A stretch of DNA of 40,170 nt from an uncultured Actinomycetes bacterium. Its GTDB lineage: Bacteria; Actinomycetota; CADDZG01; WHSQ01. The stretch covers positions 1 to 40,170 of the forward strand of contig CALMBW010000005.1 in NCBI GenBank assembly GCA_937863385.1, written 5' to 3'. Every line of letters begins with the position of its first letter. Position 1 is the first letter of the stretch. A model generated the notes under the pieces. It saw only the letters and a list, made by a program, of their open reading frames with translations, had not been told where the DNA came from and searched no databases. Of this stretch, positions 1-6,960 are shown one piece after another. Position numbers and translations under genes: made by a program.

Positions 1-76
1 CCATCATCCCGGAGCCGCCCATCATCCCGGAGCCGCCCATCATCCCGGAGCCGCCCATCATCCCGGAGCCGCCCAT
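1..76. repeat. 18-bp tandem repeat encoding MMGGSG units
   Basis: Four complete, essentially identical 18-bp copies (unit catcatcccggagccgcc on the plus strand) run from about position 2 to 73, with partial units on each side. The unit is a multiple of three and lies inside the minus-strand reading frame of the small exported protein, so each copy adds MMGGSG to the protein. The array is cut by the left edge, so the true copy number is unknown. Identity at every base suggests recent slippage or expansion. Confidence 0.95.
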
Positions 77-247
77 CTGCTCGTGGGTTTGCCGGCACAG
101 GGCCTGCATCTCCGGCAACGTTAGGTTCTGCATGTTGCCCGGCATGTTCTGGCTGATCCTGTCCCCCGCCGTGCCCCATGCCAGGCCAGCGGAGAGCAAG
201 AGGACGAGCCCAACAACTGTTCCGATCACGACATATCTGGTCTTCAT
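1..247 (-). CDS. Met/Gly-repeat exported small protein (partial, C-terminus off the window)
   Basis: This open-ended frame shows 82 residues before the left edge. The ATG at 245-247 overlaps the kinase TGA at 244-246 as ATGA, and AAAGGAGG lies about 9 nt upstream, so the start is well supported and translation is probably coupled to the kinase. Residues 5-27 form a hydrophobic signal or anchor segment. A short linker follows with Met35, Met39, Met47, Cys51, His55 and Met58, then MMGGSG repeats from about residue 63. Paired Met residues in a flexible Gly/Ser chain are typical of Cu(I)- or Ag(I)-binding periplasmic proteins. I infer an extracytoplasmic copper-binding role from the composition and from the neighbouring sensor and multicopper oxidase. 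I do not recognise a named family. A structural or adhesive low-complexity protein is the alternative. Confidence 0.8.
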   Translation of the reverse strand, partial: MKTRYVVIGTVVGLVLLLSAGLAWGTAGDRISQNMPGNMQNLTLPEMQALCRQTHEQMGGSGMMGGSGMMGGSGMMGGSGMM

Positions 248-1677
248 CTTTGAAAACCTCCTTTCGAACTCACGTTAGTGAGCCGTTGTGAAGAGGCCAT
301 GAAGGACCTGCGCTGCTTCGATGAGGTGAGCGGGACCCGCACCGTGAAGGTCGTTCCCCTTCCCAACTCGCTGGCGACGGTTACTTCCCCCCCATGGGCC
401 CGCGTCAGCTCACTGACGACGGTCAATCCGATGCCTGACCCACCTGCGGTGGCTCCCCGCCCCCGGTAGAAGCGTTCGAACACCCGAGCCAGTTCGTCTT
501 CGCGGATGCCGGGGCCACTGTCGGCCACGCGCAGAACCGCGGACGTTCCGTCGGTCTCGAGGTACACGCGCACGTACCCCCGGGCAGGAGTGAACTTGAG
601 GGCGTTCGAGAGCAGGTTGGACACGACCTGACGGAGCCGGGCAGGATCACCCAACACGATCACCGAAGCGGCCACCTCCGTCTGCAGATCGATCCCGGCA
701 GTCTCGAAAGCCCCTGAGAAATCCCGGGCCGAATCGACCACGAGCTCGTCGAAGCGCACCTCACGGAGGGCCAAGGAGAACCCCGCAGCATCGGCGGACG
801 CGAGCGCCTCGAGATCGGCAACCGACCGTGACAGACGAAGAACCTCTTCATGGAGCGAGGCCAAGGCAGCATCGTCGAGATCGACGACGCCGTCCTGCAT
901 CCCTTCTACGTGGGAAAGAAGGATCGCCAGCGGAGTCCTAAGCTCGTGAGCGACGTCGGCGGCGAAGCTCCGGCGAAGGCGGTCCTCCTCGTCGATGGCA
1001 TCCGCCATCGCGTTGAAAGCCCGGCCCATCTCACCGAACTCATCCGGCGTCTCTAGCTCCACACGGCGGGCGCGATCGCCAGCAGCGAGGTCCCTCGCCG
1101 CCCGCGTTAGTTCTCTCGCAGGAGCGATCGCACGCTTTCCGAGGAGGAACCCGATCACGACGGCTATGAGGCCGGCCGCGATACCTCCGAAGATCAACAG
1201 CCGGTTCACTTCCGAGCGGAACTCGGCGTCTTGAGGGAACAGTCCAGTTTCGGGGAGGCGGACGAACGCGGTGCCTACAACGACTCCGTCGGCCCTCACC
1301 GGAAGGGTTCTCTCTGGCCCCAGGGTGCCACTTCCCATCATCTCCTGATGCATCTCGGACATGTGGGTTCCGAGTGACCCTTCATCTGCTTCCCAGACGG
1401 GTCTGCCCGACACGTCCTCCAACCGGATCGTTCCCCCGTCCATGAGCGCCGCGGGGGCAAGGGCAGCAAGGTCTCTTGGATCCCAACCATCTGCCCGTTT
1501 GTAGGAATCCGCCAATGTCGCGACCACAAGGCGCTCGCGCGATTCCTGGCGATCCTCGAGATAGCCGGTGAATCGAGTCCCGAAGGCGATATTGACGAGG
1601 ATCGCCGTCAGCGCGGCAGCCGAGATGCCGATCCCGGCGAAAGCAGCGGTAAGCCGGAACGCGAACGATCTAGGCAT
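244..1677 (-). CDS. Two-component sensor histidine kinase with His/Met-rich sensor loop
   Basis: This membrane sensor kinase of 477 residues would phosphorylate the regulator encoded just upstream. Transmembrane segments lie at about 10-33 and 158-180 and enclose an extracytoplasmic domain of roughly 125 residues. A HAMP linker follows (about 180-235), then a HisKA domain with the phospho-accepting His244 in HELRTP. The ATPase domain has an N box (SNLLSNALKF, 353-362), G1 box DSGPGI at 386-391, F box FERFYRG and G2 box GGSGIGL at 412-418. The loop carries HMSEMHQEMMGSG at 105-117, a His/Met cluster suited to copper or silver binding. Its MMGSG resembles the repeat unit of the protein encoded downstream. 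The ATG overlaps the regulator stop by 8 nt. About 27 residues extend past the usual end of the ATPase domain. Histidine kinase is certain; the metal ligand is inferred. Confidence 0.95.
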   Translation of the reverse strand: MPRSFAFRLTAAFAGIGISAAALTAILVNIAFGTRFTGYLEDRQESRERLVVATLADSYKRADGWDPRDLAALAPAALMDGGTIRLEDVSGRPVWEADEGSLGTHMSEMHQEMMGSGTLGPERTLPVRADGVVVGTAFVRLPETGLFPQDAEFRSEVNRLLIFGGIAAGLIAVVIGFLLGKRAIAPARELTRAARDLAAGDRARRVELETPDEFGEMGRAFNAMADAIDEEDRLRRSFAADVAHELRTPLAILLSHVEGMQDGVVDLDDAALASLHEEVLRLSRSVADLEALASADAAGFSLALREVRFDELVVDSARDFSGAFETAGIDLQTEVAASVIVLGDPARLRQVVSNLLSNALKFTPARGYVRVYLETDGTSAVLRVADSGPGIREDELARVFERFYRGRGATAGGSGIGLTVVSELTRAHGGEVTVASELGRGTTFTVRVPLTSSKQRRSFMASSQRLTNVSSKGGFQR

Positions 1678-2743: not shown

Positions 2744-3367
2744 CTAGCAGGACTTCCCGGATGCCGGGGTGCAGGTGAACTCAACCTTCGAGTCAGCGGT
2801 GCCGTAGAACATGCGTCCGTAGCTGGGAGCTCCACCGATGACCGGGGTCACTTGGATCATCAGCAGCGACGAGGCGGTGAAGTCCACATCCTCGAGAACC
2901 GCCTCAACGGCGCCTTCACCGGAGGGAAGATCGACAACTACCGAAGCAGCCGGCTCGATGTAAGCCTCGTTACAGGCCTGAGCGGCAACGTCGGGCCACA
3001 CGCGGATCTCAACCTGGCCCGGCGACGACATAGCGGTGAAGGAGACCTTCATGTCGCCGGTGACACGGCCGGAGAGCTGGCCGACGAAAACCGGCATGAG
3101 GCTGTTGCCTGCACAGTTGGTGTTGGGTCCGCCGGTGTAGTTCGGGATCCCCATGGACTTCTCGCCGGTGCCCTCCGTAGCGGCCAGCTTCAGATACACA
3201 CCGTTGGCGGTTTGATCTTCTTCGCCGTAGTTGCTGGTGCCGTCCATGAACAGCGTGGTAGCAACCGGCTTAGCCTTCTTCTTCTTGCCGGCTTGGGCCG
3301 GCATCGCGGCAGAGCCTGCTACGAGTCCGGCTACCAGGCTAGCGACGATCAGCTTGTTGAGCTTCAC
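2744..3367 (-). CDS. Secreted protein of unknown function
   Basis: The protein has 207 residues and a classical signal peptide: Lys-containing start, hydrophobic stretch at about 6-20, cleavage after AQA at 24-26. The mature N-terminus begins with a run of lysines (GKKKKAKP). The rest is rich in Gly, Thr, Ser and Val with little charge, suggesting a beta-sandwich. A few cysteines, including a C-terminal pair separated by seven residues, could form disulfides. The start is GTG at 3365-3367 with GGGAGG about 6 nt upstream. It lies 225 bp downstream of the multicopper oxidase on the same strand, with a strong hairpin after its stop, so it may be its own transcript or the end of the oxidase transcript. 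I do not recognise the family. Export is well supported; function is unknown. Confidence 0.85.
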   Translation of the reverse strand: MKLNKLIVASLVAGLVAGSAAMPAQAGKKKKAKPVATTLFMDGTSNYGEEDQTANGVYLKLAATEGTGEKSMGIPNYTGGPNTNCAGNSLMPVFVGQLSGRVTGDMKVSFTAMSSPGQVEIRVWPDVAAQACNEAYIEPAASVVVDLPSGEGAVEAVLEDVDFTASSLLMIQVTPVIGGAPSYGRMFYGTADSKVEFTCTPASGKSC

Positions 3368-3592: not shown

Positions 3593-5098
3593 TCAAGCAG
3601 GGAGGTTGCAAACGAACGATCCGGGAGGTTCGCTCTCTCTGCTACCCGCATATGCGGGACCGTCGGCGGCCGCTAAGACCTGCATCTGACCCATCATCGA
3701 GTGGTCCTCGTGGGCCAAGTTGTGACAGTGATACATGTAGAGCCCCGAGAACCCGCGCAAGGTCATGATGATCCTGACCGAAGCCGAGGGGTCGACCCGG
3801 ACGGTGTCCTTCCAACCAAGCTCACCAGGACTCACCGGTCCGTCGCTGCGGTCGAGAATCTGGAAGCGAACCAGGTGCACGTGCATCGGATGAGCCATGG
3901 AGGAAGCGTTTCGGAAGGTCCAGATCTCCGTGTCACCAAGGCGGGGTTTTATATCGACACGCTGAGCATCGAAAGCTTCGCCGTTTATCACCCAACGATT
4001 CTTGTCGAAGTCCTTGCTGAGAACGAACTCCCTCTCGATCGTGCCCGGCCCAGGCAGAAGCGGCTCTACCGGTTTAAGGATCGAGGGGAGAGAACTGTCG
4101 TCCGGTTCCACACTTGCAACATCGAACCGCATGACAGGTTTGGCCACGCCCGTCACCTCGGTGCCCGCTCTGTCCTCCAGCACGATACTGGAACCGACCG
4201 AGTAGTTCGAGAAGTCCACGACAACCTCGATGCGCTCTGCGGGCGCGATGAGTAAGTCGGTCGTGGGAAAGGGCGCGGAGAGCAGGCCTTGATCTGAGCC
4301 GATCTGGATGAGAGGGGCACCGTCGGCGAGGGCCAATCGGTAGATGCGACTGTGCGACGCGTTAAGGATCCGGAAACGGTACTTCCGAGCGGAGACCTTG
4401 AGATATGGCATCGGAACACCATTCACCAGATAGATCTGATCGAGGAGTTGATCGACCGTCTTGCGGAATCTCAAAGACCCGTTCGGTCGAAAATCGCGAT
4501 CCTGAAGGATGAGAGGGATGTCAAAACGGTCCTTGGGAAGGTTGAGGTCGCTCTCGTCCTCATCCTCGATGATATAGAGCCCCGAAAGACCCATGTAGTT
4601 GTTACGAGAAGTCTGGTGGCACAGGTGATCGTGATACCAAAGAGTGGCCGCCTCCTGCCCATTGGGATAAACGTAGTCGTAGACTTCTCCAGGTTCTATC
4701 GCCAAGCTTGGGTGACCATCGCTCCTCCAGGGAACCTCCCCCCCGTGGAGATGCGTACTGATCGGGACGTCCAACCGGTTCCGCCGGCGCACGACAACCT
4801 GGCGGCCACGCTTCACCTTGAAGGTCGGGCCCGGAAACCGGCCGTCGAAGGCCCAAACTCGCGTGCGCAAGCCCTTGACGATCTCGACATCCGCTTTTCG
4901 AACAGCGACATCGTAGAAGTCGTAATCGGCAGTCACGCGTTGAGGACGCGCTATAGGAGGGATCTTCAACCGCATCCTGAACGGACGGATCCGTGAGCGT
5001 CCTGCCTGCTTGGGCACGCCCGGAGACGGCAGCAGACTGGCTGTCGCCACAACAGCTCCCATCTGCAGCGCCTCACGCCGGGTTATCTCCATCGTCAC
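3593..5098 (-). CDS. Tat-exported multicopper oxidase (CotA/bilirubin-oxidase-like)
   Basis: This three-domain, laccase-like oxidase of 501 residues couples one-electron oxidation of metals or phenolics to reduction of oxygen to water. The N-terminus has a twin-arginine signal (TRREALQMG, Arg7-Arg8, then a hydrophobic stretch), so it folds with copper before export. All ligand motifs are present: HLH at 116-118, HDH at 156-158, HPMHVH at 403-408 and HCHNLAHEDHSM at 457-468, with Cys458 the type 1 ligand and Met468 its axial ligand. The GTG start at 5096-5098 lacks a clear ribosome site; the ATG two codons later is an alternative. The gene follows the CHRD gene by 37 bp and is probably co-transcribed. 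Substrate cannot be read from sequence; copper(I) oxidation is plausible given the neighbouring sensor and Met-rich protein. Confidence 0.95.
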   Translation of the reverse strand: MTMEITRREALQMGAVVATASLLPSPGVPKQAGRSRIRPFRMRLKIPPIARPQRVTADYDFYDVAVRKADVEIVKGLRTRVWAFDGRFPGPTFKVKRGRQVVVRRRNRLDVPISTHLHGGEVPWRSDGHPSLAIEPGEVYDYVYPNGQEAATLWYHDHLCHQTSRNNYMGLSGLYIIEDEDESDLNLPKDRFDIPLILQDRDFRPNGSLRFRKTVDQLLDQIYLVNGVPMPYLKVSARKYRFRILNASHSRIYRLALADGAPLIQIGSDQGLLSAPFPTTDLLIAPAERIEVVVDFSNYSVGSSIVLEDRAGTEVTGVAKPVMRFDVASVEPDDSSLPSILKPVEPLLPGPGTIEREFVLSKDFDKNRWVINGEAFDAQRVDIKPRLGDTEIWTFRNASSMAHPMHVHLVRFQILDRSDGPVSPGELGWKDTVRVDPSASVRIIMTLRGFSGLYMYHCHNLAHEDHSMMGQMQVLAAADGPAYAGSRESEPPGSFVCNLPA

Positions 5099-5135: not shown

Positions 5136-6089
5136 TCACTGAACCCATAGCTTGAGCATCATCGTCCCGCCGGCCGATAGAACGCCTCGGAGATCAAGGG
5201 TGTAGCCCTGGCATCTGGCGGTTTTCAGACCATCTATCTGCTCCGCGCCCAACTCAGAGCGACCACCCGAATCGTTCGGTTGTGAGAGTGGGCCGACACT
5301 GCCGAGATTCAAGCCATCTGCGGCGGCCCTAACTCTTCCTTTCGAATCCAATACGAACAGGTCATGCTCGTCTGAAGGCGTAAAGACATAGCGAACATAG
5401 AGTCTCGAGGAGGGAAGCGTCGTAGCAACCTGCAGATTGCGGTAGAGGGAGACCGGGTCGGTTGGAGTCACCGCCGGAACCGTGACAGGGATCTCAAGAG
5501 GATCCATAGGGGTAGCCGCCCCATCGATGTAGATCGTGTCTTCACCCCGGCCCTGCTTGGGGGGCTTGTAGTTCTTGCACCCATTAAGGGTCGTTGCCCC
5601 CGCGGCGGCGGTCTCCAACTGTCCCCGGAGTGCACCATCCGGGTATTCGTCATTGTGAAGGTCGGTGTAGTACCCGTTTGGGTTGTACTGCATCGCCTCA
5701 ATGGTTGCTGGGTCAACTTCGAACGCACAGCCCTCGCGCGGGTTTCCGTCGTCGCTGAATAGGTCGACCACGACAGGCCCAGCTATACCCCGCGAGCCCT
5801 CGTGTATGTGGCCGGAAGTGGGTCTCTGGATTCGGCTGAAAGTAAACGTGTAGCAAACCACCTCGATCTCCGAAGCAGTCTTGAAATGAGCCTTGGCAGT
5901 GCCGTCTGGATCCCCTTCGTTCGGAATGACTTCCCCTCCAGTGAGGCGCGCTTTCTGCTCCGATGAGTGCGCCGAAGCTGGAGACGCCAGAACGCCTCCG
6001 ACCAGCGCTAGAGCGGTGATCAACAAAGCAAGCCGAGACTTAGAGACCATAGAGGTGTTATTCACCTTGAAGTGGTCATCACCTGCCAT
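5136..6089 (-). CDS. Secreted CHRD-domain protein
   Basis: This exported protein has 317 residues. The open frame runs further upstream through tRNA-Ala, but GAGGAG about 8 nt before the ATG at 6087-6089 marks the probable start; the ATG at 6050 is an alternative. A signal peptide ends at ASA, residues 38-40. Residues 45-150 match the CHRD domain: a Gly-Gly-Glu-Val start, the signature HIHEG at 94-98, then GPVVVDLF, and the closing DGALRGQLE. Such domains occur in chordin and in many bacterial secreted proteins whose role is poorly known. The C-terminal half (about 165-317) is not recognised. It carries RLYVRYVFTP and ends in a hydrophobic WVQ. The gene lies 37 bp upstream of the multicopper oxidase, suggesting shared expression and perhaps shared function at the cell surface. 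Confidence 0.85.
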   Translation of the reverse strand: MAGDDHFKVNNTSMVSKSRLALLITALALVGGVLASPASAHSSEQKARLTGGEVIPNEGDPDGTAKAHFKTASEIEVVCYTFTFSRIQRPTSGHIHEGSRGIAGPVVVDLFSDDGNPREGCAFEVDPATIEAMQYNPNGYYTDLHNDEYPDGALRGQLETAAAGATTLNGCKNYKPPKQGRGEDTIYIDGAATPMDPLEIPVTVPAVTPTDPVSLYRNLQVATTLPSSRLYVRYVFTPSDEHDLFVLDSKGRVRAAADGLNLGSVGPLSQPNDSGGRSELGAEQIDGLKTARCQGYTLDLRGVLSAGGTMMLKLWVQ

Positions 6090-6220
6090 CCGGATGCTCC
6101 TCACGGGATCACAAGGTCGACGGTCACGCCCACGGCTGCGTGATTGAGGAGGCCCGGTGACGGGGCCGTGACGAGCGACCCGCCGTATCCCGACGCCGGT
6201 TCGCGCACCGCAAGTTTGAG

Positions 6221-6293
6221 TGGACCCGACCGGGATCGAACCGGTTACCTCCGCCATGCCATGGCGGCGCTCTACCAAGTGAGCTACGGGCCC
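6221..6293 (-). tRNA. tRNA-Ala (anticodon GGC)
   Basis: A full cloverleaf is visible on the minus strand. The acceptor stem GGGCCCG pairs with CGGGTCC and includes the G3-U70 wobble that identifies alanine tRNAs. The anticodon stem CCGCC/GGCGG holds the loop ATGGCAT with anticodon GGC, and the T arm is ACCGG-TTCGATC-CCGGT. The discriminator base is A, and CCA is not encoded. It lies between the Arg/Gly-rich protein gene and the CHRD gene. Confidence 0.97.
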
Positions 6294-6345
6294 TAGGTGA
6301 GGACTCCGAACGGAGCCCGACGATGCTAACAGGGCTAGGTGATGC

Positions 6346-6960
6346 CTAGTTAGGTGAGTCGTTGTTGGGGGGGCCGGGGTTGTTGTTGCCTCCGTTGGTT
6401 CCGCCGCTGCCTCCACCGCCCCGGCGCCCCCGTCTGCGGCGCCGGCGTTTGGGTGAGCGGCCCCCCGAACCGGGGTCGTTCGAGGTCATTCGAGCTACCG
6501 AAGGAGCCTTCTCGCGCTTGGGAGCGTCCGAAGTGGGCTGGCGGCGTTCTTGCTTCGGCTCCTCGTTGGTTGCCGGAGCACTCTGCCGATCCGCAACCTT
6601 GAGCGTGATGCGGTACTCCTGCGGGTACTGCGGAACCCCCCAGGTCGACTGGAGTTCGCCGATCAGCTCATCGAGGTCGGTTCCGTCGGGCTCGAGCATG
6701 CCGACACGACGAGGCTCTTCCTCGGTCAGAAGCCTGAAGAGATCCTCGGAAAGCTTGGGCGATGGGATGCCGCCGTTGCCACCGCCCGATCGCCCACCGC
6801 GTCTGCGCCGGCGCTTACGCCCTCGTTCACTCGCAGGACCGGAGCTTTGACGCTGCGACGCGTCGGAAGATGCCTGAGGTTGCGCTTGCTCGCGCCCTTG
6901 CCCCCCGGAGCTGCCTCGGCCTCTGCGGCCTCTACGTCGCCTCCGCCGTGGCTCGGGCAT
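6346..6960 (-). CDS. Arg/Gly-rich, mostly disordered protein downstream of rsfS
   Basis: The protein has 204 residues. The ATG at 6958-6960 is chosen because GGGAGG sits about 6 nt upstream. It lies 29 nt inside the end of rsfS in another frame, so the two are probably translationally coupled. Three arginine clusters are visible: one at the N-terminus (PEPRRRRRRGRRGRG), one near residue 50 (RKRRRRRGGRSGG) and one near the C-terminus (PKRRRRRRGRRGGGG), with Gln/Ser- and Asn/Gly/Pro-rich spacers. Between the second and third clusters lies a short segment that may fold (about 67-120: LSEDLFRLLTEEE, then DLDELIGELQSTWGVPQYP and EYRITLKV). This composition fits nucleic-acid binding, perhaps rRNA or ribosome association given RsfS next door. 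No family is recognised, so the function is inferred from composition only. Confidence 0.75.
   Translation of the reverse strand: MPEPRRRRRRGRRGRGSSGGQGREQAQPQASSDASQRQSSGPASERGRKRRRRRGGRSGGGNGGIPSPKLSEDLFRLLTEEEPRRVGMLEPDGTDLDELIGELQSTWGVPQYPQEYRITLKVADRQSAPATNEEPKQERRQPTSDAPKREKAPSVARMTSNDPGSGGRSPKRRRRRRGRRGGGGSGGTNGGNNNPGPPNNDSPN

Follow-up and report, generated by a model that had tools for sequence, protein, structure and literature searches.

Does a membrane sensor kinase handle the same metal as the small exported protein encoded just behind it? This question is raised by one end of a 40,170-base stretch of actinobacterial DNA (the window), which is the complete contig C5 of a 2.77-Mb genome in 27 contigs. 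An earlier, sequence-only reading had described there a kinase with a Met-rich loop and, joined to it by an ATGA overlap, a gene for an exported protein made of MMGGSG repeats. Both genes proved to be real, as judged from open reading frames, Pfam matches and hydropathy.

Gene order and a small gene split by the assembly

On the minus strand, the window encodes successively a multicopper oxidase, a secreted protein, a response regulator, the sensor kinase and the small exported protein (Table 1). The 3' end of the regulator gene overlaps the start of the kinase gene by 8 nt. CueO was the best NCBIfam match of the oxidase, with a score under the CueO cut-off. The secreted protein (207 aa) has a lysine-rich stretch behind its signal. 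Next to the oxidase lies an ORF with a CHRD domain, the upstream part of which, as mechanically called, overlaps a tRNA-Ala gene; its real start is therefore probably further downstream.

Table 1. Features of the window (positions refer to the forward strand of contig C5)
Feature	Position	Strand	Evidence
Perfect 18-bp tandem array encoding MMGGSG, 4.3 copies	1..77	-	TRF; overlap with C27 end
Exported Met-rich small protein, incomplete at contig end	2..247	-	ORF; C27 continuation
ATGA overlap, kinase stop/small-protein start	244..247	-	Sequence
Membrane sensor histidine kinase, 477 aa	244..1677	-	Pfam HAMP, HisKA, HATPase_c; hydropathy; AlphaFold; Foldseek
Met-rich loop HMSEMHQEMMGSG, kinase residues 105-117	1327..1365	-	
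OmpR/PhoB-type response regulator, 233 aa	1670..2371	-	Pfam Response_reg 2.9e-33, Trans_reg_C 1.5e-26
Secreted protein between oxidase and response regulator	2744..3367	-	No Pfam match
Multicopper oxidase, 501 aa, upstream, same strand	3593..5098	-	Pfam Cu-oxidase_3 + Cu-oxidase_2
CHRD-domain ORF	5136..6416	-	
tRNA-Ala gene	6220..6293	-	

The small gene is split by the assembly at the contig end, not in nature. Another contig of the same genome, C27, terminates in an identical array, with the same frame and direction and an exact 77-nt overlap with C5. Overlaps of 77 nt between contig ends are common in assemblies made with k = 77. C27 supplies the stop codon, so that the joined frame ends in ...MMGGSR* and the joined protein counts at least 92 aa, this length being a lower bound because the number of repeat copies across the overlap is uncertain. 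Downstream of the small gene, and on its strand, C27 carries a DUF2933-like gene, which narrowly misses the Pfam cut-off (E 0.0016), and then a SHOCT gene (2.3e-6). A SHOCT gene is also found directly behind the small gene in the relatives G110, G090, G029 and G178, which independently supports the join. The genome assembly can thus be joined at this place (C5 1-77 with the end of C27), inside the repeat.

The sensor loop, the small-protein family and their linkage

The kinase possesses the HAMP, HisKA and HATPase_c domains and the PAS-like fold of a two-component sensor kinase with an extracytoplasmic PAS/PDC domain. By hydropathy, its hydrophobic segments begin near residues 9 and 156; the Met-rich loop lies between the two and is therefore predicted to be outside the cytoplasm. 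An AlphaFold model based on 17 sequences (mean pLDDT 80) showed a PAS/PDC-like extracytoplasmic sensor domain in which the Met segment is a predicted helix (104-114) flanked by two pairs of strands. With this domain, Foldseek retrieved WalK and the silver-bound sensor domain of CusS (5ku5; prob 0.98, E 0.02); a profile of the sensor had no match among PDB sequences. With the model of the heavy-metal sensor family TIGR01386 (CztS/SilS/CopS), the kinase remained under the curated cut-off (186.8 vs 292.55 bits), as it did with PRK09835. The BaeS model gave it a higher score than TIGR01386, yet also below the cut-off.

Close kinases were collected from 396 genomes of the phylum, from 84,980 species genomes and from plasmids. 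An alignment of 17 sensor domains (A4) revealed a conserved loop signature, MHRxMMGxG, with M113 and G115 kept in all 17 sequences, H110 in 16, and M109 and M114 in 15. As judged from these sequences, the conservation of the loop, including an H-x-x-M element, is beyond chance, and we regard MHRxMMGxG in the predicted helix as a candidate site for Cu(I)/Ag(I).

The small protein of the window consists of a signal-like N-terminus, a short core (LPEMQALCRQTHEQM) and a tail of GGSGMM units. Past the signal, Met accounts for 22% of the residues (12 of 54), as against 1-4% in the eight other window proteins that were compared, an enrichment that on composition is beyond chance. Its relatives are similarly built: the signal sequence is followed by a short core centred on [M/L]PAxxRAxxxxxHxQM and then by a Met/Gly/Ser tail, which varies and takes different forms in different families (MMGGSG, MNGMMGSGSG, GMDGMDG, GPGMMGGTGSTM). 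The window protein matched the family profile with E = 1.2e-15, the profile itself containing that protein. No Pfam or NCBIfam family was found above cut-off for this small-protein family, and NCBIfam had none for the window protein or its relatives L014, L015, L067 and L081. The Pfam family Metal_resist (PF13801) weakly matched 5 of 16 members, not including the window protein (E <= 0.01; best 7e-4). In the model of the G090 relative (mean pLDDT 63), the helices are short and the tail is disordered; Foldseek found no match for this model, and there is no solved structure related to the small protein. A tblastn search of plasmids with the small protein gave no match. A hit on a Tsukamurella plasmid lay in an unrelated context and was set aside.

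According to the sequence-only reading, loop and tail share an MMG(G)SG motif. They have only MMG (3 aa) in common, and shuffled loops shared an equally long word with the repeat protein in 50% of the trials. Furthermore, among eight kinase/protein pairs, the likeness within own pairs did not exceed that within permuted pairs (P = 0.44 and 0.35). An exact shared motif was rejected on the basis of these two tests. Since the match is at chance level, the likeness between MMGSG and MMGGSG is a coincidence within two Met-rich segments.

A link between the two genes was found at another level. We scanned the kinase loci on both strands for exported Met-rich proteins, and then with profiles. A member of the small-protein family was present in 17 of the 21 loci with a Met-loop kinase (window included), either adjacent or within about 5 kb. 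It lay directly downstream of the kinase in 8 of them (window, G110, G090, G029, G178, G227, Pseudonocardia MH-G8 and P. nigra), with a 4-nt overlap in the first four and with a contig gap inside the G178 pair. Nine others had it about 4-5 kb upstream, on the opposite strand and divergent: G046, Streptomyces NBC_00637, wuyuanensis, cellulosae, A3M-1-3, zinciresistens (twice) and iakyrus, and Rhodococcus marinonascens. Looking only at downstream genes would thus have made most Streptomyces kinases appear partnerless. No member was detected in the four remaining loci (G032, A. marina, G401 and the Acidimicrobiales locus YX2), the last of which has a run of 100 Ns immediately behind the kinase gene.

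Profiles made from either half of the family recovered members of the other (E 1.8e-9 to 1.7e-5 in one direction; 9e-11 and 1.7e-7 at best in the reverse one), and the linkage is therefore not a circular result. In 12 loci of related kinases without a Met loop, the best match had an E of 4.4e-5 (G180) and fell short of 1e-5. The difference (17/20 Met-loop loci vs 0/12 others, G401 having been found later) was significant, with a Fisher P of 2e-6, or 3e-5 if G180 is counted. Among the 396 genomes of the phylum, kinase and small protein occurred together in 6, out of 8 and 7 (P 4e-11). Genome G276 (66% complete) contained the small protein, with a tail of GTGSTMGPGMMG repeats (L089), and the SHOCT gene without an adjacent kinase, indicating that this pair can travel alone; ArsR-like, cation-efflux-like, thioredoxin-like and CcdA-like genes were recognised by eye in its vicinity. 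This locus and the Met-loop kinases without the small gene indicate that the link is not obligatory. These comparisons support an evolutionary link between kinase and small protein. The idea that the repeat gene always follows the kinase was rejected, the gene lying upstream in 9 of the 21 loci and being undetected in four.

A putative copper sponge and its alternatives

Neighbouring genes point to copper as the likeliest ion. A P-type ATPase with the CPC motif of copper pumps was found beside the two-component system in all 8 Streptomyces and Rhodococcus loci that were read, and also in G046. The ATPases of NBC_00637 and G046 passed the copper-ATPase cut-off of NCBIfam; a RicR-like and a CopZ-like gene also occur in NBC_00637. 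A multicopper oxidase is encoded in the window and, in P. nigra, another one close to the kinase. Genes with DUF2933 have been noted in islands for copper and silver (PMC12582456, PMC8478169). Other metals may come into play, because genes for zinc uptake are located close to the G110 kinase. In view of the linkage in evolution, the conserved H-x-x-M loop and the copper-related neighbourhood, it is plausible that kinase and small protein handle the same metal.

Two-component copper sensing is best known in proteobacteria and cyanobacteria. The sequence-only reading knew of no three-part system of this type, but pcoRSE, silE with silRS, copMRS and zraPSR had already been described. The present locus is an undescribed actinobacterial version of arrangements known in the copper and silver resistance of other bacteria. 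It may work like pcoRSE/silE, copMRS and zraPSR, the resemblance being one of organisation rather than of demonstrated family membership. The pcoRSE (pcoABCDRSE) and silE-silRS systems of Enterobacteriaceae likewise combine in one locus a regulator, a kinase and a small exported Met/His-rich sponge, and this type of island also holds a DUF2933 gene, as on C27. As for SilE and PcoE, a small exported Met-rich protein (with few His) is encoded with an RS two-component system in the window. SilE and PcoE are metal sponges, and direct signalling from SilE to SilS has been proposed (PMC5008109). SilE is disordered in its apo form and uses His and Met motifs to bind Ag+, while binding is predicted here. 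In contrast to SilE and PcoE, to which it has no recognisable homology (no SilE/PcoE model of NCBIfam matched), the window protein is actinobacterial, has a Met/Gly/Ser tail with few His, and overlaps translationally with the kinase.

In Synechocystis, the Met-rich exported protein CopM is similarly encoded in an operon with CopRS and binds copper (PMC4335983), an activity that is again predicted for the small protein. CopM differs by its two DUF305 domains, which carry an HH motif, and by the place of its gene, ahead of RS; DUF305 was absent from the Pfam matches of the window and of the family members. ZraPSR and CpxPAR also tie an exported accessory protein to a kinase, with feedback in the case of ZraP and CpxP, and zinc-bound ZraP represses its own operon (PMC10848872). 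They differ by responding to Zn or envelope stress and by belonging to a recognisable Spy-like family, of which Metal_resist gives only a weak hint here. As to the kinase, the sensor fold of CusS is likewise PAS-like and includes a Met/His segment (M133-M135). The Met triad and His stretch of the periplasmic CusS loop contribute to copper sensing (PMC10100754); the sequence subfamily of CusS is different. On plasmid pPRO1 of Pelobacter propionicus, we observed a ZraP-like protein (L017, 5352-5741, plus strand; NCBIfam ZraP E 1e-5, below cut-off), encoded directly after a response regulator and a related kinase and upstream of a heavy-metal P-type ATPase.

The best reading, to which we give a probability of about 60%, is that of a putative two-component system that responds to copper and has an exported sponge for Cu(I). 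The operon would comprise the response regulator, the kinase, the Met-rich exported protein, the DUF2933-like gene and then the small membrane protein with SHOCT, the last two on C27. Outside the membrane, the MHxxMMG helix of the PAS-like sensor domain would probably allow the kinase to sense Cu(I) and perhaps Ag(I) as well, and the regulator would switch on the envelope copper defence, with the upstream multicopper oxidase as the obvious candidate target. The helical core and the disordered Met/Gly/Ser tail of the small protein would probably bind several Cu(I) with low specificity and, as a sponge, buffer copper outside the membrane; the short helices and disordered tail in the G090 model are as expected of such a protein. 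Being made from the kinase's own transcript, the sponge would therefore also damp the signal. An actinobacterial counterpart of the known copper systems is thus indicated. It has a clear signature in its sensor (MHRxMMGxG), and the Met-rich exported protein linked to it falls outside the Pfam and NCBIfam families. The presence of this counterpart in Streptomyces and Pseudonocardia would allow the question posed by SilE, PcoE and ZraP, sponge or kinase regulator, to be asked in a second, unrelated lineage.

The small protein could instead be an accessory of the kinase, its apo or metal-bound form binding to the sensor domain and repressing or activating it, much as ZraP acts on ZraSR or CpxP on CpxA. 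This is possible, though in our opinion rather unlikely. The linkage of its gene to sensor kinase genes in different families, the weak Metal_resist matches, the position of the Pelobacter ZraP-like gene, and the precedents of ZraP and of the proposed SilE-to-SilS signalling (PMC10848872, PMC5008109) agree with such a role; the lack of a recognisable Spy/ZraP-like fold or solved relative, the poorly conserved core and the kinases that have no partner do not. We consider it improbable that the tail is mostly low-complexity sequence generated by slippage, with little function, next to a helical core unrelated to metal. The 18-bp units of the window are indeed identical in DNA, as after recent slippage, and the tail varies widely in length and letters between relatives, but differing Met-rich tails recur across families beside copper-type or sensor genes, with a Met fraction far above background. 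That the small protein hands copper to a neighbouring multicopper oxidase or efflux pump instead of buffering it, as the oxidases on the same strand in the window and near the P. nigra kinase might suggest, is highly improbable, since most family loci have no oxidase in the stretch read, but a P-type ATPase or neither, and no conserved docking element is apparent.

His-rich loops and other exported proteins

Three kinases of one other family (G180, G161 and G141) were found to have a His-rich sensor loop. The exported proteins linked to them are richer in His than in Met (M5/H10 for G180, M0/H4 for G161 and M0/H5 for G141), the G161 protein having HGGERHGG repeats, but two of the three are marginal homologues only. 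Over 20 pairs, the compositions of loop and protein were correlated (Spearman 0.60, p 0.005), with the proviso that the pairs are not independent on the tree. No credible partner was found, in the stretch examined, for a second His-loop kinase of G161 or for the kinases of G403 (His loop) and G401 (Met loop), which came from extending the His-loop comparison to the order of G180. The covariation of loop and exported protein in ligand type is thus suggestive only. It is quite doubtful that the two form a co-evolving pair tuned to one metal chemistry (Met with Met, His with His), in which the protein sets the threshold of the sensor; if this were true, the exported protein would tune this threshold by competing for, or passing on, the same ion.

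The exported proteins with more His than Met that are linked to His-rich-loop kinases are encoded in L054 (6973-7338, minus strand), L056 (6014-6541, plus strand) and L057 (9514-10038, minus strand), the L056 protein having HGGERHGGERHGG repeats. A different Met-rich exported protein (MMGSGGMAKNCAKM...) is encoded shortly downstream of a distant kinase without a Met loop (L058, 6668-7060, minus strand). Met-rich exported proteins of yet another type, with MGMDGMNM repeats and DMGMQDD, were encountered near Streptomyces copper loci, in L015 (7642-7971 and 8280-8927, plus strand) and in L073 (8206-8547 and 11547-12062, minus strand).
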